DNA of 64,000 nucleotides, taken from the NCBI RefSeq assembly GCF_036250755.1, contig NZ_CP109583.1:6363501-6427500 (forward strand), written 5' to 3'. This DNA is from Streptomyces uncialis (GTDB lineage: Bacteria > Actinomycetota > Actinomycetes > Streptomycetales > Streptomycetaceae). Made by a program: the position numbers and the translations under genes. A model generated the notes under the pieces. That model made no database searches. It had not been told where the DNA came from and was given only the letters and a program-made list of their open reading frames with translations. This document shows, one piece after another, positions 17,409-42,613 of this stretch. Position 1 is the stretch's first letter. Each line of letters starts with the position of its first letter.

Positions 17409-17481
17409 GGGGCTATAGCTCAGTTGGTAGAGCGCCTGCATGGCATGCAGGAGGTCAGGAGTTCAATTCTCCTTAGCTCCA
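17409..17481 (+). tRNA. tRNA-Ala (anticodon GGC)
   Basis: A 73-nt cloverleaf: acceptor GGGGCTA paired with TAGCTCC (one G-T), D stem GCTC/GAGC, anticodon stem CCTGC/GCAGG with loop ATGGCAT (anticodon GGC, reads GCC and GCT), and T arm AGGAG-TTCAATT-CTCCT. The discriminator is A and the CCA end is not encoded. A sequence-identical copy lies at 18403. Confidence 0.97.
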
Positions 17482-17487
17482 CACTTG

Positions 17488-18402: not shown

Positions 18403-18475
18403 GGGGCTATAGCTCAGTTGGTAGAGCGCCTGCATGGCATGCAGGAGGTCAGGAGTTCAATTCTCCTTAGCTCCA
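18403..18475 (+). tRNA. tRNA-Ala (anticodon GGC), second copy
   Basis: Identical over all 73 nt to the copy at 17409, with anticodon loop ATGGCAT. A possible promoter lies upstream (TTGGTG near 18335 and TAATGT near 18359). The CCA end is not encoded. Confidence 0.97.
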
Positions 18476-18486
18476 CAAGCGGTTGA

Positions 18487-28512: not shown

Positions 28513-30410
28513 GCGGGGCTCCTGGGGTCGTCTCCTCCGGCAGCCCAGCCCTTGGCAGCACAGCGCGTGGCAGCACAGCATCCGGCAACACGGCGCTCGG
28601 CAACACGGCCGCGGACCTCCGGCTGGTGCCGCCCGCGCTCGCCGTGTGGCTGACCGCCGCGCTGCTCCTCGGAGCCTCACCGTGGTGGACGGCGGGGGTG
28701 GTGCTGTGCGCCGCGGTCGGGGCCGTGGCGCTGCTTGTGCCCTGGCGCCCGAGCGGTGGCCGGACGGCGGCACGGCGGGTGACCTGGGCTGCGGTGCTGC
28801 TGTGTGTGGCGGCCTCGGCTGCCGCGGCCGGTCTGCACGGGGCCGATCTATGGCGGGGGCCGGTCCCGGAGCTCGCCGACCGGTACGCGGCGGCGACCTT
28901 CGAGGTGGAGGTGGCGGCGGACCCGCGCCGGGCGCGCCCGCGTCCGACGGGAGCCGCGGCGCCGCCGCTCGTGCTGGTCGACGCCCGGGTGGTCCGGGTG
29001 ACGGCGGCGGACGGCGCGGTCACCCGGACCCGTACGCCCGTGCTGCTCATGGTGGACGCCGGCCGGGCGCCGGGGCGGTGGCTGGAGGTACTGCCGTCCA
29101 CCCGGCTGCGGGTCATGGGACGGCTCGCCCCGCCCCAGCGGCGCGGCGGTGACATCGCGGCCGTCGTACGGGTCGACGGGGAGGGACCGCCGCGTGTGGT
29201 CGCCCCGCCGTCGGCGGTGCAGCGGATCGCCGGGGAGTTACGGACGGGCCTGCGCCGGGCCACCTCGGGGCTGCCCGAGGACGCGCGGGCGCTGTTGCCG
29301 GGACTGGTGGTCGGGGACACCTCGCGGGTCACCCCGGAGCTGCGGGACGCGTTCGAGAGGACGGATCTGACGCACCTCATGGCGGTGAGCGGTTCGAACT
29401 TCGTCGTGCTGCTCGCGTTGCTCGTCGGCCCGCCGGGGATGTCGCAGTCCGTGGAACGGCGGGGGCTGGCGCCCAGGCTCGGCATCGGACTGCGGGCGAC
29501 GGCGGTCCTGGCCGCAGGGCTCAGTCTCGGGTTCGTCGTGGTGTGCGGACCGGAGCCGAGTGTGGTGCGGGCGGCGGCCTGCGGCGGGATCGCGCTGCTC
29601 GCGATGGTCACCGGACGCCGGAGATCGTTGCTGCCCGCGCTGGCGGCGGCCGTGCTGTTGCTGGTGCTCCATGACCCGTGGCTGGCCCGGAAACCGGGCT
29701 TCCTGCTGTCCGTCCTCGCGACGGGCGCCTTGCTCACGGTGGCGCCGGGGTGGAGCGCGGCACTGCGGCGGCGCGGTGTGCCCGGCCGGGTCGCCGAGGC
29801 GCTGGCGGCGGCGGCCGCCGCCCAGGCGGTGTGCGCGCCGGTGGTGGCGACGTTCGCGCAGCGGGTGAGTGTCGTCGGGGTGCCGTGCAATCTGCTGGCG
29901 GAGTTCGCGGTGGCGCCCGCGACGGTCCTGGGGTTCGGCGCCCTGATCACGGCGTGGGTGGCGATGCCGGTGGCGGAGGTCATCGCGTGGTGCGGCGGCT
30001 GGCCGGCGGGGTGGATCGCCGGGATCGCCCGGACGGGGGCCGCCTTGCCGGGCGGTTCGCTGGGGTGGCCGGGCGGCTGGCGGGGCGCGCTGCTGCTGGC
30101 GGCGGCGGTCGCGCTGGCCGTGCCGACGGTACGGCGGTTGCTGCGGAGTCCGGCCCTCGCGTCGGCGTGCGCCTTCGCCCTGGTGCTGGCCGTGGTGCAG
30201 CCGGTGCCGCTGACCCGGGTCATGACGGGATGGCCGCCGCCCGGGTGGCGGTTGGTGATGTGCGATGTGGGGCAGGGGGACGCGTTGGTGCTGGCGGCGG
30301 GTGGGGGCAGTGCGGTGGTGGTCGACGCGGGACCCGATCCGGGGCGGGTCGACCGGTGTCTGCGGCGGCTCCAGATCACCCGGGTGCCACTGGTGCTGCT
30401 CACCCACTTC
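28509..30410 (+). pseudogene. comEC: comEC 5' part, interrupted by a mobile element
   Basis: ComEC is the polytopic channel for transformation DNA, with a C-terminal metallo-beta-lactamase (MBL) nuclease domain. This part holds the N-terminal hydrophobic region, the OB-like domain and the competence domain (DLTHLMAVSGSNFVVLLALL), then enters the MBL domain at WRLVMCDVGQGDALVLAAGG. Normal sequence stops inside the metal-binding motif at LLTHF (30410), then ten foreign codons lead to TGA at 30440. The rest of the gene resumes at 42005. Codon 244 (29238-29240) is TTA, so the intact gene would depend on the bldA tRNA. A truncated membrane protein lacking the nuclease domain could still be made. 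Confidence 0.93.
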
Positions 30411-30442
30411 TTCTTTCCGCTGTTCAGATCTGTCTCATGAGA
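30405..30442 (+). repeat. Left end of mobile element (imperfect terminal inverted repeat)
   Basis: CACTTCTTC (30405-30413) is inverted at the right end as GAAGAAGTG. Further in, CGCTGTTCAG matches CGCTCAG of the inverted right end. The palindromic TGTCTCATGAGA (30431-30442) also recurs at the right end, and a half site TGAGACA lies at 30476. CACTTC itself belongs to comEC, so target and element end resemble each other, as expected of a tyrosine-recombinase core site. Confidence 0.7.
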
Positions 30443-30529
30443 TCTGTGGTTCAGTCTCGTTCCGTTGTGGCGGTATGAGACAGGTGAGCCGACAGGAGTT
30501 TCTCTCCGGGCCCCTGGGAAGGGGCGAGA

Positions 30530-31996
30530 GTGGATCTTGCTTTTGTGCAGTCCGGACTGTTGGAGAGGTTCCTGGACAGCGACGTCATCTCCGCGGCGGA
30601 GGTGGACGCGATGCTGAAACGGCGAGGTGTGCTCGACGGGACGCCGGTTCTCCTCGACGAGGAGACGATGATGCCGGTGCCGACCCTGTGCGAGTACGGC
30701 CGGTATCTGTCAACGGCACTGTTGGACGAGACGACGCTCAAGGATTACGGCCGGGTGATCAGCCGACTGAACAACTACCTAGTCAAATTGGAAAGTGACG
30801 TTTTGTCGGCGGTGGAAACGGATCTCGTCTCTTACCGCAGTCATCGGACGCAGTGGCAGGAGAAGCCGATCGGCGGCTCGGCATGGGGCAAGGAGTCATT
30901 CGTCCTGGACGACCTCTATGGGTTCCTGGTCGACCGTGGATTCCTGTCACACCGGCCAGCCCGGGTAGCGGCGCGAGGACGCAACGCGCTGGCACCGCGC
31001 GTCCGGTCGAGCAAGGACATCCGGCACCTGACCTTCGATCAGTACCGGTACTTCCGGGACGTGGGGTTCGGCGGCCAGCTGCCCGACGCCCAGGTTGACC
31101 TGCATTTTCGTGGATGGTCTCCGCTGCGCAACCGGGCTGGCTCGGATATGGCCCTGGGGTCGGGGATGCGATGGCGGGAATGGTCCACAGTGCTGATGCC
31201 AGAGATCGGCCTGTGGCCTGGGATGCCGGGCGGGGCAGCGGAGTTCACGGTCCAGGCATGCGCGAAGTACGGCAAGGCTCGCCCCATCTATGTCCCCGAA
31301 GACGCGGTCGGATCCGCTGACCTGTTCTGTCTATTGGAGCGTCCGGACATCGTCCGCCGGGCCGCGCGGACTCTGGAGCGCAAAGCCCGCGACCTGTTCG
31401 TGGTGAGCAAGGTGGACGTGGCTGGCGGACGGGTGCGGGGTGTACAGGACGGCGTTGTGCGCGAATATCAGATGTCGGCGATGCCCGCGAAACTGCGGCG
31501 GATCGCTGTTCACGAGGGCGAGTTCGGCCTGGAGGCATTGTCCCTGTTCGTCTGCCGCGGCGGGCTGATGCCGGGGGCGGACGCCTGGAAGGGTTACCGC
31601 CATCGGGCCTGGGTGCGCATGAACGCGCTCGCTGACGAGACCACGCCGCTTCTGCCCGTCCGGCGGTGGAGATGGCACGACCTGAGGCACACATACGCTC
31701 TGCGGCTTTTGACCTACCTGGAGAACGTCATGGACGGCGAGGAGCCGAACCTGCAGGCCCGTCGGCGCCGGCATCGTTCCTACCTGACGGGGCACCTCCG
31801 GCATAATCCGCTGCTCATTGTCAGCCGTAGGCTCGGTCACGCAAGTCCGGAGACCACGTACCAGTACCTCCAGTACACGGACGATCTGATCAACGAATTC
31901 GAGAACGCGTTTGCCTGCTGGGTGGGCGACGACGAGGCGACCTACGCCGAGATCGCCACGCATGCCCTGACCGCAGCAGACGAGGGCCGTCGATGA
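30530..31996 (+). CDS. Tyrosine recombinase A (TnpA-like)
   Basis: 488 residues from the GTG at 30530 (GGGAAGGGG upstream). It has a complete catalytic set: Arg in SGMRWREWS, Lys in KYGKARPIYVP, the box HDLRHTYA (about residue 383), His in RRLGHASPETT and Tyr in TYQYLQY (about 443). The N-terminal half should be the core-binding domain. It is the first gene of a four-gene set with 4-nt overlaps, implying the proteins act together in equal amounts. The arrangement recalls Tn554 tnpA and recombinase-in-trio elements. It should cut and rejoin DNA at the element ends and target. Confidence 0.88.
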   Translation: MDLAFVQSGLLERFLDSDVISAAEVDAMLKRRGVLDGTPVLLDEETMMPVPTLCEYGRYLSTALLDETTLKDYGRVISRLNNYLVKLESDVLSAVETDLVSYRSHRTQWQEKPIGGSAWGKESFVLDDLYGFLVDRGFLSHRPARVAARGRNALAPRVRSSKDIRHLTFDQYRYFRDVGFGGQLPDAQVDLHFRGWSPLRNRAGSDMALGSGMRWREWSTVLMPEIGLWPGMPGGAAEFTVQACAKYGKARPIYVPEDAVGSADLFCLLERPDIVRRAARTLERKARDLFVVSKVDVAGGRVRGVQDGVVREYQMSAMPAKLRRIAVHEGEFGLEALSLFVCRGGLMPGADAWKGYRHRAWVRMNALADETTPLLPVRRWRWHDLRHTYALRLLTYLENVMDGEEPNLQARRRRHRSYLTGHLRHNPLLIVSRRLGHASPETTYQYLQYTDDLINEFENAFACWVGDDEATYAEIATHALTAADEGRR

Positions 31997-33921
31997 CCGC
32001 GCCGAGCAGGAAGCGCCGGACCAAGCAGGAACGCGAGCGGTTCCTCGCAGCCTTGGCGAACCCTGTCCCGGCTGGAGGTGTCGGCCCCCGCGTGGTGCAG
32101 ACCCCCGGACGCCTTCTGGCGGTGGATCCCGCAAATTACCGTTCCTCGCTGCTGGCCATGCAACTGGCGGACGAGTGGACTGAGTACGTCGCTGCCACCG
32201 CGATCGGGGCACACGCGCGGAATTACCAGCAGGCGATCGACCGCCTCTGCCAGCACGTCGACAAGGTGCTCGGCCCTGCGGCCGAAGAAGCCAGCCTGGC
32301 CGATCCGGACCTCTTCGACATCCTGGTGAAATGGGAGCTGTCCCTAACTGAAGGCTATGCCTCGGGTTCAACAAAGCCGGGCCTGCTGGCTGCCTCGTTG
32401 CGTGTGCTGATCATCCGCCGGGACGACCACTCTGACCGCGTGGTCGCTGCGGACCTGGCACGCCTGGCCCGCGGTCCGGCGCTCCTCGGCAGCGGCGAGA
32501 AGGCAGAGCGAGATGAATTCACCCGCCCGGAGAAGCGGGCCCTGGTTCGCGCAGCCTGGAAGAGCGCGCACGCCACCCGCAAGCGTCTGAACGACGGCTG
32601 GGCTCTGGCCGAACAGGGTCGCCACCCCGATGAGGGAAGCTGGACCAACATTCCTGACCTGCTCTGGGGCCTGGCCCGCGAGCAGATCGTTGCCGAGGAC
32701 TTGCGCCGGTTCGTGCCCGGGTCACTTGAGTGGCCGAAGGAACTGATGGAGTTCACCGCTGGGCCCGGCAAGGTCCCGTATCCGCAGACCGCGCGACCTC
32801 AACTGGCGCGCAGGCTGTTGGCATCGTTGTATCCAACCAACCTCGACCTTCATGCTTTCCGCGTCTTGCTGATGGATGCCACCGGCCACACCTCCGAGGA
32901 GGTCGCTGGCTTCGGAGAGGCGGATGTGGAATTCCTTCCTAAGGGTGTTCGGCTGACCTTGCTCAAGAATCGCGCCGGACGGCTGCGGCGCCGGGCGTTC
33001 CGGGACCAGGACCCGCCCGATGCTCCAGCACCGGATGGCGATGGACAGCTCACCGTGAACTGGCCGCGGCGGGAGGCCAGCGAGGTGGTCCGGCAGCTTA
33101 TGGATCTCACAGCCCGGGTTCGCGCCAAGGCCCCGCACATCGCCGACACCCTCTTTGTCAGCGCCAGCGTCCGCCCCGACTACACCACCGTGTTCGACCA
33201 GTGGAACCCGCGCTTCCCAGGAGGACGCTTCTCCGAGTGGCTGGCTGTCATGGACGTCGAAATTGAGGGAGACCAGCACATCGGTCGCCTGCGCAAATCG
33301 ACCAAGGTCGAGAAGGCCATCGTCACCGAGGGTCGCATCGACGCCGCTGCGGATGACCACACCGAGGAGACCTTCGCCCGTCACTATGCCCAGGGCACCA
33401 CACTGCGGATCCTGTCCGGGCGGACGATCGCCACGGCTCAACAGCATTGGTTCGACACGGCTCTCGGCCGAATCTACGGCCCCACCGTCATCTCTGACGC
33501 CGAAAGCATTGACCAAAAACTCCTGGAGGACGTCGGCTTGTCCGCGCAGGAGGCTGAGGACATCATGACCGGCCAGCTCGACATGGGCGTCTCCCACTGC
33601 AAGAACCCATACCAGGGGCCATACAGTCGCCCCGGCGAACTCTGCGCCGTCGCTCCTCTTCGCTGCCTCGAGTGCCGCAACGCCTGGATCCTGCCCGACA
33701 ACCTCCCTCAACTCCTGCTCTTCAAAGCGCACCTGGAACGACTTCGTACGCTTCTGACACCGCAGGCCTTCAGCCGGCTATGGGGGCAGAGCTGGGTGAA
33801 CCTGAACACCGTCCTGGACGACCGTACGCCTGAGGAACGTGCCCAGGCCCGCAAGCACATCGAAGCCGGCGAGGCGTCCCTCGACCTGCCGTTGGCCGCC
33901 CATACGGAGTTTGACGCATGA
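31993..33921 (+). CDS. Tyrosine recombinase-like protein B (TnpB-like, active site unusual)
   Basis: 642 residues, close to the 630 of Tn554 TnpB. It starts at an ATG overlapping the stop of recombinase A. The usual first catalytic Arg position reads DATGHTSEEVAGF, with His where Arg is expected. The HxxR box is not clear; the nearest is QHIGRLRKST. A candidate Tyr lies in TFARHYAQGTT (about 464). The C-terminus has a cysteine cluster (SHCKNPYQGPYS, LCAVAPLRCLECRNAW) like a zinc-binding tail. It may be a structural or targeting partner rather than an active strand-cutter. Assignment to the family is by context and partial motifs. Confidence 0.7.
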   Translation: MTAPSRKRRTKQERERFLAALANPVPAGGVGPRVVQTPGRLLAVDPANYRSSLLAMQLADEWTEYVAATAIGAHARNYQQAIDRLCQHVDKVLGPAAEEASLADPDLFDILVKWELSLTEGYASGSTKPGLLAASLRVLIIRRDDHSDRVVAADLARLARGPALLGSGEKAERDEFTRPEKRALVRAAWKSAHATRKRLNDGWALAEQGRHPDEGSWTNIPDLLWGLAREQIVAEDLRRFVPGSLEWPKELMEFTAGPGKVPYPQTARPQLARRLLASLYPTNLDLHAFRVLLMDATGHTSEEVAGFGEADVEFLPKGVRLTLLKNRAGRLRRRAFRDQDPPDAPAPDGDGQLTVNWPRREASEVVRQLMDLTARVRAKAPHIADTLFVSASVRPDYTTVFDQWNPRFPGGRFSEWLAVMDVEIEGDQHIGRLRKSTKVEKAIVTEGRIDAAADDHTEETFARHYAQGTTLRILSGRTIATAQQHWFDTALGRIYGPTVISDAESIDQKLLEDVGLSAQEAEDIMTGQLDMGVSHCKNPYQGPYSRPGELCAVAPLRCLECRNAWILPDNLPQLLLFKAHLERLRTLLTPQAFSRLWGQSWVNLNTVLDDRTPEERAQARKHIEAGEASLDLPLAAHTEFDA

Positions 33922-36017
33922 TCCTGACTTTGCCCCAGCAGCGACATCCGTCGCTGTTCTTGAACGACGAGCCTGTCGTCCAAGGCCAGCCACTGCTGCC
34001 CGAGGCCCGTAAACCCGGCGCCTACGTTCCCCGATTCGGCGACACCGTCCTGTGGAACTTCAACGGTGTCCTCAAACGGCCTGCAAACGTTGCCCCCAGC
34101 AGCTGGAAGATCCACTTCAGTCTGGAGCTGGAGGACCTTTACTGGAACCTGCTGGCGCGGGAGCTGACGATGATCACCTTCAATCAGCGCCACCCTGCAG
34201 TTCTCAAGAGCGGCGTCATCCTCGAAGGTCTCACCAGCCCCCGCAGTCTGGCCCAAGCCACCTCCCACCTGCGGACGCTCGCGCGATGGGCCCGCAAGAA
34301 CGGGCTTGCCGCTTACCCGGACGGATGGACGGTGGAGGATCTGCGGCAGCGCATCGCCAGCATGGCCACCGACGGTCTCGCCCCGGCAACGATCAGAGGC
34401 CACGTGGGCACCTTGAAAAACCTGGCAGCAGTTGGGCCCGTCTTGAGCCTGCCATGGCCAACGGGAGATCCATGGCCTGGCCAGAGCGCGGGCGATGTCG
34501 CCAAGGTCATTTCCACCGGAGTCATCTCAACCCCCACGGTTCACCCGGCGACCTGGTTCCCGCTAATCCGCGCCGCCTGGGCCTACATTCATGACTTCGC
34601 CCCTGACGTCCTGCGCGCCGACCGCCGCCTCCACGAACTGAGAGCCGTCGCCCACTCGTCAGCCCGAGGCATCGATAGGCGACTTGAGGAGTGGCTTGCG
34701 GACACTCAGAACAAGATCCCCGTCCATCCCGCATCCCTGTCCGACCAGACCCCACAGGTTCAGTGGAGGCTTCTGACGCTCCTGCTCGGCTACAAGCCCG
34801 TCGTTCGCACACAGATCGCCCAGACCGACCGGCCGGGGAAGAGACGCCGACGCACCCTGATCCTGGACGCAGTTGCCGAGGGCCGGACCACGACTCACGC
34901 ACTGACTGGAGAACTCCTCCAGGTCACCCGACCGGATGGCAGTATTGGGCCCTGGCACCCAGGCCTCGACCAGCGGACCCTGTTCGAGGCAAAGAAGGCA
35001 CTGCGTGACGCAGCATTCGTGCTGGTCGTGGGCTTGTCGATGATGCGCGACTCGGAGATCCACGAGATCCTGCGGAATCCCGTCGTCGACCACTACAACA
35101 CCCCTGCCATCGCCTCCACGAAGATCAAAGGCACTACCAACCGCCCACGCAAACATTGGTGGATCGCCGAACCGCTCGTGGAAGCCCTTGAGGTCGCCGA
35201 GGCCGTCTCTCTACACCCCGAACGAGTCTTCGCACCCGTCCGTGCTTCCAGGCAGGACGACGGCACCCTGGTGGGAGTCCAGATGCTGGCGGCGTTCGTG
35301 ACGTTCACCAACGAGGGCCGGGCCTGGACCGGGCTCGATGAGATTCCCACCGCCTACATCCGCCCGCACATGTTTCGCCGGACCATGGCGATGCTCACCG
35401 ACCAGTTCCCGGGCTCCGAGATCGCCACCGGGATCCAGCTCAAGCACCTCGCCACGAGAGCCCTGGCCAATGCCACAACCCGTGCCTACGCCGCCTCCAC
35501 CAAGGAATGGGCCAAGTATCTAGAGGACGCCCTCGACAACGTCAAGTTCCGCAAGATCAAGGACCTCTACCAGCGTCACAGCGCAGGCGAGGAGATCGGG
35601 TTCGGGCCTGGCGCCGAACGCGTCAAGGACGCCTTCGACCAGATCGCCGCCACCGTCAAGGCCCGCAACGGCGACGCCCGCACCGCCGACACCCTCTTGC
35701 GCACCACGCGGATCCACATCCGGTTCGGCCTGCTCAACAACTGCACGGCCGACCACACCAATCCCGTCGGTGCCGTCTGCCTTGAGAACGCGATCGTCCC
35801 CGAAGGACATGTCGGCCCGCTTGACGAACGCTGCCGGCCCGACCGATGCGCGAACAGCATGATCGGCCCCGAGCATCTACCAATTTACGACTCGCACCAG
35901 CGCACACAGCTCCAGCTCATCAATAACCCCTCCATGCCGACCTGCCGCCGCGACCTCGCCGAACGCGAACTCGACATCACCCGCAACGTCCTCAAGATGG
36001 CGGGTGTGTCCCAGTGA
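33918..36017 (+). CDS. Tyrosine recombinase C
   Basis: 699 residues, starting at an ATG overlapping the previous stop. The catalytic set is present: Arg in GLSMMRDSEIHEI (about 376), Lys in STKIKGTTNRPRKH, the box RPHMFRRTMAML (about 483), and Tyr in TTRAYAAS (about 522). The C-terminal 100 residues contain cysteines and histidines (NNCTADHTNPVGAVC, ERCRPDRCANSM, PTCRRDL), likely zinc-binding, as in recombinase B. It should be catalytically competent. It overlaps the small fourth gene by GTGA. Confidence 0.86.
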   Translation: MILTLPQQRHPSLFLNDEPVVQGQPLLPEARKPGAYVPRFGDTVLWNFNGVLKRPANVAPSSWKIHFSLELEDLYWNLLARELTMITFNQRHPAVLKSGVILEGLTSPRSLAQATSHLRTLARWARKNGLAAYPDGWTVEDLRQRIASMATDGLAPATIRGHVGTLKNLAAVGPVLSLPWPTGDPWPGQSAGDVAKVISTGVISTPTVHPATWFPLIRAAWAYIHDFAPDVLRADRRLHELRAVAHSSARGIDRRLEEWLADTQNKIPVHPASLSDQTPQVQWRLLTLLLGYKPVVRTQIAQTDRPGKRRRRTLILDAVAEGRTTTHALTGELLQVTRPDGSIGPWHPGLDQRTLFEAKKALRDAAFVLVVGLSMMRDSEIHEILRNPVVDHYNTPAIASTKIKGTTNRPRKHWWIAEPLVEALEVAEAVSLHPERVFAPVRASRQDDGTLVGVQMLAAFVTFTNEGRAWTGLDEIPTAYIRPHMFRRTMAMLTDQFPGSEIATGIQLKHLATRALANATTRAYAASTKEWAKYLEDALDNVKFRKIKDLYQRHSAGEEIGFGPGAERVKDAFDQIAATVKARNGDARTADTLLRTTRIHIRFGLLNNCTADHTNPVGAVCLENAIVPEGHVGPLDERCRPDRCANSMIGPEHLPIYDSHQRTQLQLINNPSMPTCRRDLAERELDITRNVLKMAGVSQ

Positions 36018-36463
36018 CCGGGCCCGTCGATGTTGACCTCAAGGACCAGGTCAGCCCCAAGACCGCCGCCGCCCTGGGGGCGGCGATGACGCGCCTTATT
36101 GAAGGCCGCCCCCAGCGGACCGACGGCCGCCTCACCAAAGAGAATCTCTACAAGGAGGCCCAGGTCAGCCGCGCGACCATGAACAGGGCGCACGCCACCC
36201 TGGCCGAATGGGATGCCTACCTTGCAGCCCATGGCAAGGCCACCCCTGGCGAGGCAAAGCGCGACGTGACCATCGCCGACCTCAAGAAGCGCCTGACCAA
36301 GAAGACCCAGGAGTGCACGTTCCTGGAGAACAAGCTCAAGGCTGCCCACACCGCGATCGCTGCCCTCTTTCACGACAACGAAGCCCTCCGGCAGCAGCTC
36401 GGCAAGGACGTCTCCAGCACCGTCACACCCATCCGTCCCCGCGGGCCCAGGCAAGGACGCTAA
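36014..36463 (+). CDS. Small HTH/coiled-coil accessory protein (TnpC-like)
   Basis: 149 residues from a GTG overlapping the recombinase C stop. The middle has a likely helix-turn-helix (NLYKEAQVSRATMNRAHATL). A heptad-type coiled coil follows (DVTIADLKKRLTKKTQECTF, LENKLKAAHTAIAALFHDNE), then a short basic tail. Size, position and make-up match Tn554 TnpC (125 residues), which raises transposition efficiency and sets orientation. It probably binds the element ends or bridges the recombinases. Inferred from context; no direct motif proves it. Confidence 0.75.
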   Translation: MTGPVDVDLKDQVSPKTAAALGAAMTRLIEGRPQRTDGRLTKENLYKEAQVSRATMNRAHATLAEWDAYLAAHGKATPGEAKRDVTIADLKKRLTKKTQECTFLENKLKAAHTAIAALFHDNEALRQQLGKDVSSTVTPIRPRGPRQGR

Positions 36464-36494
36464 GCCAGACCAGACGAATTTTGAGGACCACGGA

Positions 36495-36535
36495 GGCCGC
36501 GCTCGGCAGAAAGGTCAGATCTGCCGAGCGCGGCC
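36495..36535. terminator. Terminator of the recombinase operon
   Basis: A 16-bp perfect inverted repeat (36495-36510 and 36520-36535) with a 9-nt loop, 31 bp past the accessory-gene stop. It insulates the recombination genes from the cargo. Confidence 0.8.
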
Positions 36536-36542
36536 GCCAGGC

Positions 36543-36863
36543 AGCGACGACGAGTCCCTTCCAGGGCAGCTGGACGAACTCGCGTACAGCTGGCTCGCGT
36601 ACCGCCAGGGAGCGAAGGCTGCCTTGGACGCGCGGACGTAGTCCTGGATCCGGCCTACCGGACGCGGGCAGGGCGTCCACACTGAGGTTGCCAGGTTCGA
36701 GGCCGACGATGCGGAGCTCGCTTCCCTGTCAGTCGCCATGTCTAGATTTCGGGCCTACGTTCCGGGTTTTGGGATGCGGGCAGGGAGTTCGGTCAGGGCA
36801 TTGGTGGAGATCCGTGGACGATTGCGGCAGGTGACTGCTTCACTTAGCGAAACACGGTTGTGA
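36543..36863 (+). pseudogene. Possible remnant of a lost cargo gene
   Basis: One frame (codons from 36543) reads like protein with strong G/C third positions: LPGQLDELAYSWLAYRQGAK, then a TAG at 36639-36641. It continues in the same frame as VARFEADDAELASLSVAM and onward to a TGA at 36863. It has no start codon and begins at the edge of the terminator hairpin. The rest of this 418-bp gap holds nothing else I can support. It may be a truncated, decayed passenger gene. Confidence 0.3.
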
Positions 36864-36881
36864 CGTGCTCAGGGGGTCGCA

Positions 36882-38432
36882 GTGCACTTTTCCGTTTCGC
36901 CAGTCCGTGTCTTTCCTCGGGCGGCCCAGCCAGGGAAGCCTCGCGTCTACTTGGTCACCGATGACTGGGACGACTGGTTTCAGTTCAATACGCAGTACGA
37001 CCTGCGCTACCAGGACGAGCACGGCGACATCCATGATGTTGGCCAGGTCAAGATTGGGCAGTTCGACATGGCGGCAGACCAGAGCCGTCCCGATCTGCCC
37101 AGCACGTTCTCGCAGCTCGACAACCGCTTCTTCTCGGTTGGGCAGGATGACAGCTACTACCAGAGTCTCAATCGATTGGGCAGCAAAGTCAGAGATGAGA
37201 TCCTTCGGGGTCTACATGACATTGCCCTGGATTCAGCTCTCTATACACGGGCCTTGCGTGAGAACGTAACGGGTACGTCGCTCCTCCGATCTGTGAGTCG
37301 AGCGACTGTAGAAATTCAATTTCGCCGTCTCGCCCGAGGTGGGCGCCGACTCTCGCGATATCACTTCACGTATGAACTACCTTCGACACCTAGATCTCAG
37401 CAACCTGCCTTGTCCTTGGAGTTCGAGGTAGTGCCAGAATCCGAACCGCCTACTAATATTCACGTACTAATTGGGCGCAATGGAGTCGGCAAGACCCATC
37501 TACTCAACCATATGGCCCGCGCACTAGCGGATCCCCACGCCGACCCAGAGGAAGTTGGCACATTCACGATGAGAGGTTCTGACAGGAACCGGCTCGCAAA
37601 TCTTGTTTCGGTCACTTTTAGTGCCTTTGATCCGTTCGAGCCTATCAGCCAGCCTCGTGATAAGACGAAAGTGGTACTGCCTTATGCTTATATTGGCCTG
37701 AAGCGAATTGGATCTAAGGTCGACGGAAAACCCCTGCCGCCTAAGGATCCGCGAGCACTAGCCAGTGAATTTACGAAGAGCGTGCAAGTCTGCGTTCAGG
37801 GTGCCCGCCTGGTGCGCTGGCGTAGAGCGCTAGAGATGCTAGAAGCTGATCCAATCTTCAGCGATGCGCGCGTTGCCGATCTCGCTGAGTCTGCGGCAGA
37901 CGCCGCCGATCTCGCTGAAAGGGCAAGTCTGCTCTACCGGAACCTTAGTTCGGGTCATAAGATCGTACTGCTGACAATAACTCGCCTCGTTGAAACCGTT
38001 GAGGAGAGTTCTCTGGTTCTCCTGGATGAGCCAGAGGCCCACCTTCATCCACCGCTACTGAGTGCTTTTACTCGCGCTCTCTCTGACCTTCTGATCAATC
38101 GAAATGGCGTTGCTGTGATTGCCACTCACTCGCCCGTTGTATTGCAAGAAGTGCCGCGAAAGTGTGCATGGCGGTTGAGGCGTTCCGGGCGAGAGGTATT
38201 GGTGGAGCAGCCCGGTGTGGAGACCTTCGGCGAGAACGTCGGCGTGCTTACCAGAGAGATCTTCGGATTGGAAGTTACGCGCTCCGGTTTTCATCGGGTG
38301 CTGCAAGAAGCCGTAGAGGGTGGCGCTTCCTATGAGGATATCTTGGAGCGATTCGATGGGCAGTTGGGTGGGGAGGCTCGCGGGCTAATTCGTGCCCTGG
38401 TTGCAGCGAGGGTCCAGGAGGGTGAGCTCTGA
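36882..38432 (+). CDS. ABC/SMC-type ATPase of a Septu-like defence pair (PtuA-like)
   Basis: 516 residues from a GTG preceded by AGGGGG. Residues 1-190 form a separate domain (VYLVTDDWDDWFQFNTQYDL, DVGQVKIGQFDM). Then comes an AAA_21-type ATPase: Walker A IGRNGVGKTHLLNH (about 195), signature NLSSGHKIVLLT, Walker B SSLVLLDEPEAHLHP (about 377) and the switch His in VIATHSPVVLQ. It overlaps the HNH nuclease gene by one base (TGATG). An ATPase followed by an HNH nuclease is the layout of Septu (PtuA-PtuB), where the ATPase controls the nuclease during phage infection. GC content is lower than the chromosome. Defence role inferred; the extra N-terminal domain is unusual. Confidence 0.82.
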   Translation: MHFSVSPVRVFPRAAQPGKPRVYLVTDDWDDWFQFNTQYDLRYQDEHGDIHDVGQVKIGQFDMAADQSRPDLPSTFSQLDNRFFSVGQDDSYYQSLNRLGSKVRDEILRGLHDIALDSALYTRALRENVTGTSLLRSVSRATVEIQFRRLARGGRRLSRYHFTYELPSTPRSQQPALSLEFEVVPESEPPTNIHVLIGRNGVGKTHLLNHMARALADPHADPEEVGTFTMRGSDRNRLANLVSVTFSAFDPFEPISQPRDKTKVVLPYAYIGLKRIGSKVDGKPLPPKDPRALASEFTKSVQVCVQGARLVRWRRALEMLEADPIFSDARVADLAESAADAADLAERASLLYRNLSSGHKIVLLTITRLVETVEESSLVLLDEPEAHLHPPLLSAFTRALSDLLINRNGVAVIATHSPVVLQEVPRKCAWRLRRSGREVLVEQPGVETFGENVGVLTREIFGLEVTRSGFHRVLQEAVEGGASYEDILERFDGQLGGEARGLIRALVAARVQEGEL

Positions 38433-39283
38433 TGTGGAGAGTTGACCGACCCGAAGACACGGCGAAGGATACCTTCCGGTTGTGCATTAGTCGCGTGCGC
38501 GTCGCGGACTTGAAGAAGCGTCTCCAAGAGGCCGAAGGGCAGGTTGTTGCAGCTGGTAAAACGTATGTCGAGGCCGCCGAGTCGGCGACTCTTCATGATC
38601 TAGATGTAGAGGACTTCGAGCTCACCAGAGTCGGCACCTCAGAGATGGTCACCGTCTATAGCGGTCGCATGGCTGGTAAGAGATCCCCTGGGCGGGTAGT
38701 CTACGACGCGCTTATATTGGGTGCTAAGGATGGCTGTTGCCCGCTTTGTGGCCAGCGTACGGTATCCACCCTCGACCATCACCTGCCTAAGTCTCTTTAC
38801 CCGGCCTTGGCGGTTAACCCACTGAACCTGGTTCCTGCCTGCTCTGATTGTAATAAGCTGAAGCTGGACGTCGTCCCATCCAGTGCAGAGGATCAGACGC
38901 TTCATCCGTATTTTGATGACGTCGAGGGGCAGGCTTGGCTCCGTGCTCGAGTTGTTAAAACCTCTCCAGTTGCACTGCAATTCTTCGTGGATACTGCGTC
39001 GGATATGGATGAGATCCTCGCTCGGCGCGTGCGTGCACATTTCAAGAAGCTGAGGCTCTCCTTCCTCTACGGTTCTCAGGCCGCCCAGGAGCTAAGTAAT
39101 ATTCGTTTCCGCTTGCTCGACATCTATGCAAGTGGTGGAGCCCTTGGGGGGCAGCAGGTACAGCAGCACTTGGCCGCAGAGGCGAAAAGCCGATGTAAGG
39201 CAAATGTGAATAGTTGGCAGACTGCGATGTATGCGGCTTTGGCTAGCAGTTCGTGGTTTTGTAATGGGGGGTTCGACGCATGA
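38432..39283 (+). CDS. HNH endonuclease of a Septu-like pair (PtuB-like)
   Basis: 283 residues from the ATG that overlaps the ATPase stop. The HNH core is GCCPLCGQRTVSTLDHHLPK (about residues 101-120) followed by NPLNLVPACSDCNKLK, with four structural cysteines and the DHH catalytic pair. The N-terminal 100 residues include a helical segment (VADLKKRLQEAEGQVV). The C-terminal 120 residues are helical and may contact the ATPase. It should cut DNA or RNA when released or activated by the ATPase. Size fits PtuB-type proteins. Codon use is AT-richer than the core genome. Confidence 0.85.
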   Translation: MWRVDRPEDTAKDTFRLCISRVRVADLKKRLQEAEGQVVAAGKTYVEAAESATLHDLDVEDFELTRVGTSEMVTVYSGRMAGKRSPGRVVYDALILGAKDGCCPLCGQRTVSTLDHHLPKSLYPALAVNPLNLVPACSDCNKLKLDVVPSSAEDQTLHPYFDDVEGQAWLRARVVKTSPVALQFFVDTASDMDEILARRVRAHFKKLRLSFLYGSQAAQELSNIRFRLLDIYASGGALGGQQVQQHLAAEAKSRCKANVNSWQTAMYAALASSSWFCNGGFDA

Positions 39284-39296
39284 TGATGAGGGAGCG

Positions 39297-39386
39297 TTGA
39301 CTTTGCTGGCACCTGCAGTTCGTCTGGTAAAGGACGGAACCGGGATTAAGCAGTCGGCAGCGGAGTACGGGGCGATCACGTCGTAA
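39297..39386 (+). CDS. Possible mini-ORF after the HNH gene
   Basis: A TTG with GATGAGGGAG just upstream opens 29 codons (LLAPAVRLVKDGTGIKQSAA and onward), ending TAA at 39386. It could be a small third component of the cassette or the remnant of a gene. Support is weak: size, a non-ATG start, no recognised motif. Confidence 0.2.
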   Translation: MTLLAPAVRLVKDGTGIKQSAAEYGAITS

Positions 39387-39527
39387 CGTCAGCCGGGAGC
39401 GATAGCCTGGTTCTGGTGCGTCGAGCGGGCCGAAACGTCGTCACATACCAGGACGCCGGCGGGCGTCCATCTTGGCTGGTCCTCCACTGTCTCACGGCGC
39501 CTTGATCCTGTGTGTTCCATGACCAAG

Positions 39528-39566
39528 TCACAGCTTCCCGGCCGTGCCGCGGCCGGGAAGCTGTGA
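39528..39566. terminator. Bidirectional terminator, 16-bp perfect stem
   Basis: TCACAGCTTCCCGGCC pairs with GGCCGGGAAGCTGTGA around a 7-nt loop. It lies between the convergent HNH and XRE-ImmA genes and can serve both. The remaining bases from 39387 to 39634 hold nothing else I can support. Confidence 0.88.
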
Positions 39567-39634
39567 GTGGTAAAGATGTAGCCGTCCTGGCTTTGTGGTG
39601 CATGCCGGGATGGTCTATCGGCGCGTGTCTTGAC

Positions 39635-40813
39635 TTATCCTTCAACAAGTTGAAGGAAGCCGTACGCGTTATCGGGGGAATCAGACGGTTCTTCGGTGTC
39701 GGGATTAGGCTTCAGGTTGATCCGAGGGCGCGTCATTGTGGCTGTCGTGTACACCTGATCGGCCAGCTCGGCGGGCAGGCCGGATCGTGCAACGATTTCA
39801 GCAAATGGCACGCCGGTCTCCTCACACAGTCGAACCGCTGACTCAAGGAGCGCGGGGGATTCGCGAGGGCCGAGATCGCATGGTTCCGGATCTCCATGTT
39901 GAGAAAGCGCCATCATCGCCCTTTTGTAGGTGGTATCGCGAAACACGCCAATAGAGTGCGCACGGTAAACGAGAGCCTTTAGCGAGGTGCCCCATCTGAG
40001 CTTTAGGGAGTAGAGAGTCTCCCAATCCAGGCGTCGCGGCAATTCATCGGCAATTTCGGCGCGAGGCATCAAAAATTCTGCAGCGAAGTCGTGCGCTTGA
40101 TTCTCTACAATTCTGCTGCCGGGTTCGGCATCGAGATGCATAATCAGATGCCCTACTTCGTGAGCGACATCGAAGCGGGAGCGGGGTAGATCATTCTTGA
40201 GAGGATTGCGAAAAATGATTGGCCGGCTGCCGTACCAATGAGAGAAGGCGTCGACCCGCTCGGAGACCGGCGGGAGTTCCATGACTACGACGCCGTGTGC
40301 TTCTAGGAGTCGGGTCACGTGGGGCAAGGGGCCGCTCTTCACGCCCAGGGCGGAACGGGCCTGCTGAGCAGCGGCCGCTACCTCTGAGCGCGTTGGGTCC
40401 GAAGGGATTGGTAGTCGTGGCAGGACCACGGTCGGGAGTTCGACGTACTTCTCAACCGTGGTCACCAACTGCCAAGCGATCTTTCCGAATGCAAGAGCTT
40501 GGTCCCGTTGCAGTTGAGTCGTTGCGCGAAGGCTGCGGAAGTGGGCGGCGCTCGGCATGGCTGGATGGGGGTGCCCGCTCGCGAAGAACGCGGCTGGCAC
40601 CCCTAGCGCCATTGCAAGCTGAGCAACGACAGAAGCTGATGGCCGGCTCTGCGCAAGCTCGTACTGGCTCACTGCCGCAGGCGTCAGTCCTACTTGCTTG
40701 GCCAATTCGTTCTTGCGCAATCCGCGCAACTGCCGTGCAGTGGTCAAGGATTGAGGGTCGAACGCGCGAGACGCGAAACCGGCCTCTCCCTGACGATGGT
40801 GCGTCGTGGACAT
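39635..40813 (-). CDS. XRE-family HTH / ImmA-IrrE metallopeptidase fusion
   Basis: 392 residues from the ATG at 40813, 10 nt after the upstream stop; an in-frame start at 40867 would overlap that gene. The N-terminus is an XRE HTH (ARQLRGLRKNELAKQVGLTP, AAVSQYELAQSRPSA, about residues 25-70). The middle holds the zinc motif HEVGH in FDVAHEVGHLIMH (about residue 215), then ENQAHDFAAEFLMPRAEI, the usual ImmA/IrrE pattern. Such fusions bind operators and cleave a repressor or antitoxin. Here it probably regulates its own operon or another element gene. It is convergent with the ATPase-HNH pair. Confidence 0.88.
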   Translation of the reverse strand: MSTTHHRQGEAGFASRAFDPQSLTTARQLRGLRKNELAKQVGLTPAAVSQYELAQSRPSASVVAQLAMALGVPAAFFASGHPHPAMPSAAHFRSLRATTQLQRDQALAFGKIAWQLVTTVEKYVELPTVVLPRLPIPSDPTRSEVAAAAQQARSALGVKSGPLPHVTRLLEAHGVVVMELPPVSERVDAFSHWYGSRPIIFRNPLKNDLPRSRFDVAHEVGHLIMHLDAEPGSRIVENQAHDFAAEFLMPRAEIADELPRRLDWETLYSLKLRWGTSLKALVYRAHSIGVFRDTTYKRAMMALSQHGDPEPCDLGPRESPALLESAVRLCEETGVPFAEIVARSGLPAELADQVYTTATMTRPRINLKPNPDTEEPSDSPDNAYGFLQLVEG

Positions 40814-40823
40814 CGTTGAAATC

Positions 40824-41645
40824 TCAGTCTTCTTGGTTTTGAGTCTTCGGCTGCTCGTCCGGATCATTCCGGCGACGCTTCAGGGGGATCTTGGACTCGC
40901 CGAGGTCCATGAAGTTCTGCTGTTCCTTCGAGCCGCTCTCCTCAGGGAATCCTTCATCATCGCGCGGTTGCTCGGCAGTACCAGCCGGCCGCAGGGAGTC
41001 GGTGGGGTCCGCGGAGGCTGAGGCCTTCTCGAGATCCTCGGGCTTCGCCTGTGTTCTTGGAGCTGGCAGCGATACCTGCAAGCCGTTGTGCAGCTGCGCT
41101 GTCCCGTCGAGCCAGGGAGAACCACCTGCCCGGTTGTCTCGGGGGAGACCCAACTCGATGACACAGCCACCGGTCTCAGGGTCGCCTGTGTGCATAATGC
41201 GGACATGCCCCTGCGTGATCGCCGGGGCGAAGGCCGAATCCCATCCGGACTCTTCGCTCAAGGCGAGCTGAACGCCAGCGGAGCTGTTGGCCACAGCGCC
41301 ACGCAGTCGCGGACTACTCCCGTCCCAGCGGACCTTCTCCAGCGCCGCCGGGATCTTGTCGGGTGTGGTGAAGCGGAACTTATAGAACCGCACTACCCAC
41401 GGCCCACTGGTGATCTCGACTGCGCCACCCGCCACGATGCGAGCCGAGATTCCAGCCTGCACCAAGCGCAGCCGAACCAGGTTGGCGATGTTTCGCCAGG
41501 TTTGCTGCCCGAACGTGCCCATGTCGTCGCCGAACCTGGGCTCGAAGCGGTCGGCGTTGGTTTCGTAGACCTGCTGAGTGACTTCCTCAACGATCCCAAG
41601 TACGCCGTCTCGGCGCAGATCTGTCATGGCTTGCCGCAGAGTCAT
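40824..41645 (-). CDS. Unrecognised partner protein of the XRE-ImmA gene
   Basis: 273 residues from the ATG at 41645 (MTLRQAMTDLRRDGVLGIVE); the open frame extends to 41723. The folded part spans about residues 1-170 (WRNIANLVRLRLVQAGISAR, GPWVVRFYKFRF, GHVRIMHTGDPETGGCVIEL). The last 90 residues are Pro/Glu/Asp/Gln-rich and disordered, ending very charged. No catalytic motif is visible. It lies 10 nt before the XRE-ImmA gene on the same strand, so the two are one operon; it could be the peptidase substrate, a toxin, or a sensor. The 360 bp from 41646 to the right end hold no other supported gene. Confidence 0.7.
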   Translation of the reverse strand: MTLRQAMTDLRRDGVLGIVEEVTQQVYETNADRFEPRFGDDMGTFGQQTWRNIANLVRLRLVQAGISARIVAGGAVEITSGPWVVRFYKFRFTTPDKIPAALEKVRWDGSSPRLRGAVANSSAGVQLALSEESGWDSAFAPAITQGHVRIMHTGDPETGGCVIELGLPRDNRAGGSPWLDGTAQLHNGLQVSLPAPRTQAKPEDLEKASASADPTDSLRPAGTAEQPRDDEGFPEESGSKEQQNFMDLGESKIPLKRRRNDPDEQPKTQNQED

Positions 41646-41968
41646 ATCCACGGGGAGAACATAGCAGAAGGCCACCGTTTCTGCGTGAGAATCAAGTAGG
41701 CGATGTGTGGCGCTTCTGGCCAAGCGGCCTCGTGTGGAAGGGCACCACCGACAGGCTGCCTACCGATGATCTTGTTCAGCCTGGCAGTTGCTTCGCAGTC
41801 ATGGCGTGCGCCTCGGTGGAGGTCGCATCTACTGACGCCCCTTCAGGGATGGCGCTCTTCGAGGGGTTACCTGCAGCTGTGTCAGCGGCTGCATAGACGG
41901 TGATGTTTCCTGAAGCTCCACGAGCAACGGTGTTCCCTGGTCCAGCGCGTAGCTCGTGATCGGCCTGA

Positions 41969-42001
41969 TGTCTCATGAGACATGCTGAGCGCGAAGAAGT
42001 G
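41969..42001 (-). repeat. Right end of mobile element (imperfect terminal inverted repeat)
   Basis: TGTCTCATGAGACA (41969-41982) is a perfect palindrome sharing 12 bases with the left-end copy. GCTGAGCG and GAAGAAGTG (41993-42001) are the inverted counterparts of the left-end blocks. comEC sequence resumes within the next 4-10 bp. Confidence 0.7.
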
Positions 42002-42004
42002 TGC

Positions 42005-42613
42005 CATCTGGACCATGTGGCGGGACTGGAGGGGGTGTTGCGGGGCCGGGACGTGGGGGTGATCGAGACGACGGGTCTCGCGGAGCCCGCCGCGCAGGCC
42101 GCGGCGGTGCGACGGACCGCCGCCGGGCGGGGGATCGCGCTGCGGCACGCGGTGGCGGGGGAACGGCGGCGCACCGGACCCGTCGAGTGGGAGGTGCTGT
42201 GGCCGCAGGACACACGGGCGCCCGGTGCGATGGGTCCGCTGGAGCCGAACGACGCGAGCGTGACGCTGTTGGTGCGCAGCGGCGGGCTGCGGATGTTGTT
42301 GCTCGGTGATCTGGAGCCGCCCGCGCAGCGGGCGTTGGTGCGGGGGCCGCTCGGCGGCCGGTCCGCGCGGGTGGACGTGGTGAAGGTGGCGCACCACGGG
42401 TCGCCCTTCCAGGACCCGGAGCTGCTGGAGCTGACCCGTGCGCGGCTCGCCCTGATCTCCTGCGGCCGGGACAACCCGTACGGGCATCCCTCGGCGAGGA
42501 CGATCGGGGCGCTGGAGGCGGCCGGGGCACAGGTGTCGCGCACGGACCGTGACGGTTCGGTGGCCGTGCTCGACGGGGACGGGCGGGGTCCCGCGACGGT
42601 CGCGCACCGCTGA
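42005..42613 (+). pseudogene. comEC: comEC 3' part (metallo-beta-lactamase domain remainder)
   Basis: Continues the ComEC MBL domain in frame: HLDHVAGLEGVLRGRDVGVI, DASVTLLVRSGGLRMLLLGD, VDVVKVAHHGSPFQDPELLE, ALISCGRDNPYGHPSARTIG. These are the later metal-binding motifs of ComEC and complete the 5' part. Together the halves would give about 836 residues, a normal ComEC length. An ATG inside the element (41975) could start a short protein, but without the first His of the THFHxDH motif it should be inactive. Confidence 0.93.

Follow-up and report, generated by a model that had tools for sequence, protein, structure and literature searches.

A probable site-specific mobile element with a four-gene recombination operon splits comEC of Streptomyces uncialis within its metal-binding motif

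Introduction

Why does comEC of Streptomyces uncialis break off in the middle of its catalytic metal-binding motif, to resume more than 11 kb downstream? The locus lies in a window of 64,000 nucleotides (contig NZ_CP109583.1, positions 6,363,501 to 6,427,500 of the forward strand), to which all coordinates below refer. A sequence-only reading of this stretch likened it to Tn554, whose favoured chromosomal target is radC (att554). Is comEC such a target, and what kind of element has entered it?

Results

The interruption is an 11.6-kb insertion in the THFHxDH codons of comEC. The 5' part of the gene (28509..30410, + strand) encodes the Competence domain (Pfam Competence, E 2e-41) and the start of the metallo-beta-lactamase (MBL) domain; its frame continues into the element and meets a stop at 30440. 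The 3' part (42005..42613, + strand) encodes the remainder of that domain, positions 502-663 of TIGR00361. Joined, the flanks form 2511 nt of a single frame without internal stop (836 codons) in which THFHxDH is restored, and the predicted protein aligns with four intact Streptomyces ComEC proteins across LTHFH.DHVAG, with no gap or duplication in the stretch compared. Since the joined frame and the alignment agree, the two parts belong to one gene. An element inside the motif and restoration of the motif in frame had both been described by the sequence-only reading, which proposed alignment with intact comEC as a check. Its junctions, 30405 and 42010, located the split, and we now place them more tightly: the element proper spans 30411-41998, with one hexamer outside each end. 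As ComEC is cut from its MBL nuclease motif, the insertion should abolish MBL nuclease function.

At the left junction (attL) the target hexamer CACTTC, the H-F codons of THFHxDH, is retained from the host (30405..30410, + strand). The left end (30411..30449, + strand) consists of the arm TTCTTTCCGCTG (30411-30422) and a palindrome around CTCATGAG (30434-30441). The right end (41968..41998, + strand) consists of the palindrome ATGTCTCATGAGACAT and the arm GAGCGCGAAGAA (41987-41998), inverted with respect to the left arm; as inverted repeats, the two arms agree at 9/12 positions. There follows a foreign hexamer, GTGTGC (41999..42004, + strand), presumably a 6-bp "fingerprint" from a donor site, and host comEC resumes at 42005 with CATCTGGAC. 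Compared by eye, the two hexamers agree at 2/6 positions.

Which enzymes could have brought the element here? Four genes, all open frames in the window, make up a recombination operon. Genes A and C encode tyrosine recombinases, each with the full set of catalytic residues: the product of A (30530..31996, + strand) has an ordinary size (488 aa; R214, K246, H383, R386, H437, Y446), and that of C (33918..36017, + strand) is large (699 aa; R377, K404, H484, R487, H510, Y524). Between them, gene B (31993..33921, + strand) encodes a degenerate protein of tyrosine-recombinase fold (642 aa) that keeps R434, H456 and Y465 but has neither the first Arg nor the box-II His. Because R, H and Y are retained, it may be catalytically alive rather than dead. 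Degeneracy of the second gene, with loss of the first Arg, is shared by the window and all nine outside operons whose second gene was aligned. Gene D (36014..36463, + strand) encodes a small coiled-coil protein of 149 aa, with N-terminal helices followed by one long helix (78-136), an architecture like that of TnpC, GinD and Srap.

No match of A-D to Pfam or NCBIfam was found at E 0.001, and Pfam searched up to E 10 gave weak matches only (for example, Phage_integrase at 0.21 for A). The fold of gene B weakly matches XerH/Cre (Foldseek E 0.17), and a fold search with gene D returned no significant match. In comparisons of hidden Markov models, A, B and C match one-to-one, in the same order, the genes of four operons from Alpha-, Beta- and Gammaproteobacteria (L087, L088, L090, L091), and gene D is homologous in three of the four. 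A search of genome contigs with gene A identified one locus.

The cargo of this copy comprises two modules of anti-phage families, as assigned by PADLOC. The first pairs a PtuA-like AAA ATPase (36882..38432, + strand; E 5e-203 for PDC-M01A, 2e-182 for PtuA) with the partner protein PDC-M01B (38432..39283, + strand; E 2e-106). The second is a RosmerTA pair: RmrA, of the antitoxin family, with HTH and ImmA/IrrE-type protease domains (39635..40867, - strand; E 2e-176), and an RmrT-like partner of the toxin family (40824..41723, - strand; E 3e-62). Cargo varies among copies of the element, and L034 has almost none.

Is the position in comEC an accident? It is not chance, for the same split occurs in 12 further genomes, as the sequence-only reading had proposed to check. 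With the window, 13 comEC genes from three genera are split at the THFHxDH codons among 699 Streptomycetaceae genomes, a figure inferred from the numbering as the distinct genomes behind searches of 392 and 394. Thirteen is a lower bound, because only a handful of candidates is scored in each genome (nearly always 4). First recombinases of the comEC-splitting elements are from 85% to 42% identical. The expectation that almost every host would offer the site also held: the C-terminal part of comEC is present in 379/392 Streptomyces genomes, and LTHFHADHVAG stands in 29/29 intact loci, the best-matching of the 379 genomes with a comEC match. In a reading of the forward strands of 30 loci, 15 gave the motif (10 THFHADH, 3 THLHADH, 2 SHFHADH). 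As a separate observation, comEC of G056 is split at its other conserved motif, KVAHHGS, by an unrelated large-serine-recombinase element (Pfam Resolvase, Recombinase).

Is the motif, then, the element's specific target, as had been claimed? Within the recombinase clade, 13/28 readable left ends lie in comEC and 15/28 at other sites (28 of 29 rows, L049 having no readable left end; outside comEC the left ends were assigned by eye). Among the latter is one element (L007/L036) whose first recombinase is 84% identical. Related elements at unrelated sites were what the sequence-only reading had named as evidence against it, and here they count against it in part. Exclusive specificity is ruled out: comEC is a recurrent preferred target, not an exclusive one. 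Other targets in the clade or family are genes for HIT-domain proteins, a sigma factor, an EF-G-like GTPase, an MFS protein, DNA polymerase III alpha and IstB, and gene A itself. On the recombinase tree the comEC label takes 9 changes, at least 7 by the starred branches, and is weakly clustered, as few changes arising in 35/500 shuffles. It is very improbable that we are looking at an immobile island, fixed and inherited together with comEC. Such an island would fit an assembly in which neither a circular form nor an empty site is visible; the repeated changes on the tree, the right hexamers and cargo that vary from copy to copy, and the open frames of A-D all speak against it.

What do the junction hexamers record? 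CAYTTY stands on the left side of 12/13 comEC insertions. Both ends could be read in 17 copies, with unlike hexamers in 12 and equal ones in 5, a mixture compatible with crossover over 6 bp and carry-over from the donor. L043 has the target GTCTTC in a sigma-factor gene and, at its right end, CACTTC, the hexamer of comEC. L041 has the comEC hexamer at right and CACGAC at left, which runs against the strand-biased rule, unless its host comEC read THDH. We rejected the proposal that all right hexamers derive from other comEC genes: CAYTTY is at the right in only L037 (and L041, if so read) of 11 comEC copies read at both ends. Hexamers starting with CA are common at non-comEC targets too, and a general core preference can therefore explain them.

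A plain sequence preference of this kind is the account of the recurrence towards which we lean. The site would be degenerate, with core CANNNN and a right half-site like CANGCCGA; it would happen to occur where GC-rich genes encode conserved motifs, and comEC would match it best. CA starts the left hexamer in 7/15 non-comEC clade members (L048 by eye) and the right hexamer in 7/11 comEC copies, an excess noticed after the fact, whereas CA makes up 5% of the dinucleotides in the window. The right flanks are alike in comEC (CACGCCGACC), L036 (CACCGCGACC) and L098 (CAGGCCGAGG), and HIT genes are cut after VPHL, likewise at a His codon. Less readily accommodated are the left half-site, which shows no clear consensus by eye, and the right half-sites of L042, L043 and L048, which fit poorly.

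Searches with two scar patterns in 333 Streptomyces genomes (9 matches and 0 matches) found no excision scar in comEC; the patterns are blind to variant flanks, the window's own included. Six of the 9 matches (G106, G017, G125, G084, G312, G070) are on contigs other than that of comEC, and each of the other three (G155, G313, G179; comEC unplaced) is at most 2 letters from the non-comEC match in G125. Given no scar in comEC, excision may be rare or absent.

In a distant clade of the same element family, with 13 distinct elements (L023 and L052 counted as one), three (L023, L025, L110) interrupt the gene of a type II/IV secretion ATPase at RPANQEG[AT]. All three targets match Pfam T2SSE and are, by eye, of the TadA/CpaF type.

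Discussion

Four direct observations (which genes are present, how the element ends, which hexamers flank it and that the split recurs) argue that the insertion is very probably a mobile element that integrates site-specifically and belongs with Tn554, GInts and SEs, with A-B-C-D as its recombination operon. In the mechanism we infer, a circular copy, its end arms bordering a 6-bp crossover region, would recombine with a chromosomal site, and 6-bp strand exchange would leave the hexamer of the target on the left and that of the donor on the right. The commonest target found in the clade is the HFHADH-coding DNA of comEC; since this hardly varies within the family, nearly every host offers a site. 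The cargo is interchangeable, and here two modules of anti-phage families would repay the element's keep.

Could the loss of ComEC itself be useful to the element? A host without ComEC would take up no DNA and therefore could not remove the element by transformation, so copies in comEC might be kept by selection on the element, beyond site preference. We think this unlikely. Conservation of the target DNA accounts for the recurrence without selection; many targets (the HIT, EF-G-like GTPase, sigma-factor, MFS, DNA polymerase III alpha and IstB genes and gene A) have no known link to competence; and Streptomyces is not known to undergo natural transformation. On the other side, in another actinobacterium, Micrococcus luteus, deletion of comEC is reported to abolish transformation, and Tad/Flp pili belong to the apparatus (PMC4322843). 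A second component of that kind, the T2SSE-type ATPase, is split by three of the 13 distant-clade elements, and the serine-recombinase element of G056 hits comEC independently of the present family. There is also precedent in a transposon within pneumococcal comEC (PMC12637031) and in resistance islands and defence loci that interrupt comM (PMC11472951). Extended to both clades, the argument would be that they settled on DNA-uptake parts (ComEC, TadA/CpaF-type ATPase) to block curing by transformation while the cargo excludes phages, both doors being closed; this we hold doubtful. If it were true, comEC splits would mark a transformation system in use, now or recently, in Streptomyces.

A four-gene recombinase family in Actinobacteria gains a defined, repeatedly used coding target, and active-site codons, constrained at the protein level, serve site-specific elements as an attachment site. 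The junction hexamers may record the origin of each copy, so that genome sequences by themselves could suffice to trace movement. The splits bear on present or past use of ComEC for DNA uptake in Streptomyces, and comEC becomes a locus worth searching for anti-phage cargo.

How does the element compare with known systems? Like Tn554 it has one favoured chromosomal target, here comEC instead of radC, and the proposed parallel stands as regards the 6-bp hexamer swap and, by architecture, the TnpC-like small protein. It fails at the fourth gene: Tn554 has three (tnpA, tnpB, tnpC), and a degenerate recombinase between the two others rules out plain membership. Tn554 and its actinobacterial relatives, as described in PMC3414803, pair an ordinary with an abnormally long tyrosine recombinase and add a small TnpC-like gene; such pairs were already reported from Streptomyces there in 2012, in an account whose relevant sections do not mention comEC. 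The 6-bp core change of Tn554, target hexamer on one side and donor hexamer on the other (summarised in PMC10214605), has its counterpart here in CACTTC and GTGTGC. RITs are described as trios of recombinases (315-410 aa, each with the catalytic tyrosine) that have no fourth gene (PMC10214605); 488, 642 and 699 aa plus a fourth gene rule out membership.

GInts (PMC5385486) share a four-gene operon at one end (three recombinases and a small protein), varied cargo, short and imperfectly matching junction sequences with 6-nt staggered cuts, and one target used by distantly related members, ssb for GInts and comEC here. They differ in the position of the degenerate recombinase gene, described as third (GinC) in GInts and second here, and in that the product stays intact after insertion at ssb, whereas comEC is cut. 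Imperfect direct repeats of 10-17 nt flank GInts but not the element in the window (hexamers 2/6 alike), and equal hexamers occur in 5/17 copies. The main text of that paper, as far as it was available to us, mentions neither Actinobacteria nor Streptomyces. By blastn, the third gene of a Klebsiella relative had no match in E. coli genomes.

Competence genes cut by mobile elements (PMC12637031, PMC11472951) offer a likeness, with comEC or comM interrupted and defence systems on some elements; these concern other phyla and other enzymes, and the relevant sections describe no recurrent cut at active-site codons.

SEs, strand-biased circularizing integrative elements that form a circle without an empty site, come close in several respects (PMC10214605). 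Their order intA-tfp-intB-srap is likewise recombinase, degenerate recombinase, large recombinase and small auxiliary protein; they too have inverted end arms, 6-bp fingerprint and footprint hexamers and insertion within coding genes. SE ends are imperfect inverted repeats of 13-19 bp; the arms in the window agree at 9/12 positions. XerH (5JJV) is a structural match of both Tfp and, weakly, gene B, and a coiled coil is common to Srap and gene D. They differ in being reported, in that account, from Gammaproteobacteria only. Against the one Vibrio plasmid operon compared, which we take to be SE-like, the profile of gene B did not resemble that of the operon's second gene (hhalign probability 0.2%), and gene D gave a weak match (69%, E 4e-5); this comparison does not place them in the SE Tfp/Srap sequence families. 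The element thus combines the gene order of SEs, the four-gene plan of GInts and the 6-bp signature of Tn554 and SEs.

Interruption of comEC by a mobile element

The comEC gene of the window is interrupted within the codons of its metal-binding motif. Its 5' part (28509-30410) and 3' part (42005-42613) join into a single open frame of 836 aa, and through LTHFH.DHVAG, the stretch shown, the joined ComEC aligns gap-free to each of four uninterrupted ComEC proteins from Streptomyces. With the junctions fixed and the flanks joining in frame, the interruption is real, and the ends proposed in the sequence-only reading, which had placed an 11.6-kb element in this motif, prove almost exact. The left arm of the element, TTCTTTCCGCTG, starts at 30411 and the right arm, GAGCGCGAAGAA, ends at 41998; the two match in inverted orientation at 9 of 12 positions, and a palindrome centred on CTCATGAG lies near each. 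The host hexamer CACTTC (30405-30410) abuts the element on the left, and GTGTGC (41999-42004), which is not comEC sequence, on the right. GC content is 72.7% in the window minus the element, 65.0% in the element's left end and four core genes, and 59.0% in its remainder. Elsewhere in the window, two tRNA-Ala (GGC) genes lie on the same strand about 1 kb apart (17409-17482 and 18403-18476).

A recurrent, not exclusive, target

Is the split peculiar to this strain? We searched for gene A, the first tyrosine recombinase of the element, in 392 Streptomyces genomes (E 0.001; a match in 95, mostly at ~25-32% identity) and in 394 Streptomycetaceae genomes (E 1e-60; a match in 23), together 699 distinct genomes as counted from handle numbers. 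A comEC split at the same codons was found in the window and in 12 other genomes, comprising a first set (G264, G031, G391, G175, G092, G232, G311) and a second (G501, G560, G439, G484, G398). Nine of the 13 cases belong to the window's genus, three to genus g7 and one to genus g8. Gene A of these copies ranges from 85% down to 42% identity to that of the window (tblastn), and the order A-D is conserved wherever A-D were readable.

On a gene A tree of 43 rows, all 13 comEC rows fall within one clade of 29 (the comEC clade). The comEC label requires 9 changes, at least 7 by starred branches, and is only weakly clustered, because 35 of 500 label shuffles need as few. Among 28 readable left ends in this clade, 13 lie in comEC and 15 at other sites. 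The proposed targeting of the comEC motif therefore holds as recurrence at the same codons in 13 genomes and fails as exclusivity: this four-gene tyrosine-recombinase element hits the comEC active-site codons repeatedly but also uses other sites.

Intact comEC carries CACTTC at 27 of 29 loci, CACTTT at one and CATTTT at one. Judged against these hexamers, 12 of 13 comEC copies keep the target's sequence at the left junction, and of the 11 with a readable right end, 9 have a foreign hexamer there. Like the window, copies L033, L034, L035, L044, L112 and L114 have CACTTC on the left, followed on the right by CACTCC, CACGCC, ACGGTG, CACGTG, CGCGGC and CATGAC, respectively; L116 has CACTTT and CGCCTG, L045 CATTTT and CAGGTC, and L037 CATTTT on both sides. 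L041 (left CACGAC, right CACTTC) is the exception to the pattern. The right ends of L113 (left CACTTC) and L115 (left CATTTC) lie beyond the sequence read. A 6-bp pattern of this kind is described for strand-biased circularizing integrative elements (SEs) and Tn554 in PMC10214605.

Outside comEC, identical hexamers flank L036 and L042 (CAGCTC), L046 (CCGTCC) and L098 (GATGAG), and L048 has CATTGC on the left and AGTGGG on the right. The hexamers of L043 (left GTCTTC, right CACTTC) suggest that it reached its sigma-factor gene from a comEC-like site. L098 (1383-4066 in genome G589) is a ~2.7-kb relative with both ends present whose gene A match stops at residue 438; it looks like a deletion derivative.

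Other targets, and why comEC

Pfam matched 7 of 10 left-flank frames submitted, and both of 2 further flanks. In the comEC clade it named a HIT domain (L102), an EF-G-like GTPase (L017/L046), a sigma-70 region 2 gene, ECF-like by eye (L014/L043), and an MFS transporter (L010/L039); L101 and L086 have a junction after VPHL, of the same kind as the HIT-domain case. In the distant clade of the same family, comEC was struck in 0 of 13 distinct elements, and Pfam named IstB (L028), DNA polymerase III alpha (L109) and a type II/IV secretion ATPase. The ATPase was hit at the same codons, RPANQEG[AT], in L025, L023 and L110. Other left flanks of this clade end in WALPG (L024, L107), resembling the start of a NUDIX box, or LRLPAG (L106); the short L024 and L106 fragments had no Pfam match.

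In L112 (2630-10200 in G501), L101 (~2650) and L021 (~2610), an insertion interrupts the element's own gene A within the codons for its catalytic box, HDLRH; catalytic-motif codons therefore seem to serve as insertion sites beyond comEC. The DNA inserted in these genes starts alike (ATTGTCTCTGCTTAGTTTCCGTGTGGCGATTGACT or near), unlike the comEC-element ends; the L112 insert encodes a further, distant set of A/B/C-like recombinases.

Why this gene? On the simplest account, the recombinases recognize a DNA site which comEC offers in nearly every host. Could loss of ComEC instead benefit the element? Three observations speak for this bolder reading. Transformation of Micrococcus luteus needs ComEC, and Tad/Flp pili participate (PMC4322843). 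The ATPase struck three times by the distant clade is, by eye, of the TadA/CpaF type. In another Streptomyces comEC (L147 and L148; G056, contig C4, ~91.2-135.5 kb), an unrelated ~44-kb insert with a large serine recombinase at its right end (Pfam Resolvase and Recombinase) interrupts the second conserved motif, KVAHHGS, so that the same gene is used by a different enzyme type. Most other nameable targets, however, are not known to be linked to competence, and to our knowledge natural transformation is not established in Streptomyces. We consider such a benefit unlikely and favour the reading of a widely available DNA site.

Cargo

The element at comEC often carries defence-family cargo. PADLOC was given 1-4 predicted cargo proteins per element from 12 of the 13 comEC elements (all but L113), and strong defence-family matches were obtained in five. 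The window cargo matches a PDC-M01A/PtuA-like ATPase with a PDC-M01B partner, and a second pair predicted from profiles to be RmrA/RmrT (RosmerTA); PDC names denote PADLOC candidate systems, not proven ones. The others are L035 (DUF3644/HEC-08), L041 (DUF3644/HEC-08 and an LmuA-like protein), L044 (SduA and PDC-S28) and L114 (type IIG restriction-modification). L115 and L116 gave solely helicase or HerA matches, and no PADLOC match was found among the cargo proteins tried from L033, L034, L037, L045 and L112. L113 encodes relatives of the window PtuA-like, PDC-M01B and RmrA proteins (tblastn). RosmerTA members are toxin-antitoxin systems of phage defence, according to PMC10440598. The cargo of L115 (10195-16673 in G484) may include a lanthipeptide-type gene cluster: by eye, some of its proteins resemble a LanB dehydratase and a cyclase, and another is a methyltransferase fusion.

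Core genes and relation to known elements

The tyrosine-recombinase active site is complete in genes A (488 aa) and C (699 aa). Gene B (642 aa) keeps residues 4, 5 and 6 of the R-K-H-R-H-Y set (R434, H456 and Y465 in window numbering), whereas its first Arg and box-II His are missing. Counts of residue conservation cover 20-21 proteins per family. The top Foldseek hits of the gene B AlphaFold model (mean pLDDT 74.8) are the tyrosine recombinases XerH and Cre, and are weak (best E 0.17, probability 0.89). The model of gene D (149 aa; mean pLDDT 85.3) has N-terminal helices, then a long helix (78-136), and gave no significant fold match. A-D had zero matches to Pfam and NCBIfam models at E 0.001.

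HMMs built from Streptomycetaceae A-D proteins matched plasmid operons of Pukyongiella, Rhizobium, Klebsiella and Paraburkholderia one-to-one and in the same gene order (best E: A 1e-62, B 5e-35, C 1e-64, D 9e-26), save that no gene D counterpart was found in the Paraburkholderia operon. In Vibrio plasmids, matches were limited to A (one of two plasmids, 3e-8) and D (3e-5, 6e-5); C was the sole match in an Alteromonas plasmid (8e-13). Tn554-like pairs are already known from Actinobacteria (PMC3414803). A literature search, with most subscription papers outside reach, returned no paper linking such elements to comEC. Because the degenerate recombinase is the second gene in all operons aligned, the order A-D is that of SEs, whose gene order is described in PMC10214605; the four-gene plan is common to GInts, genomic islands with three integrases (PMC5385486).
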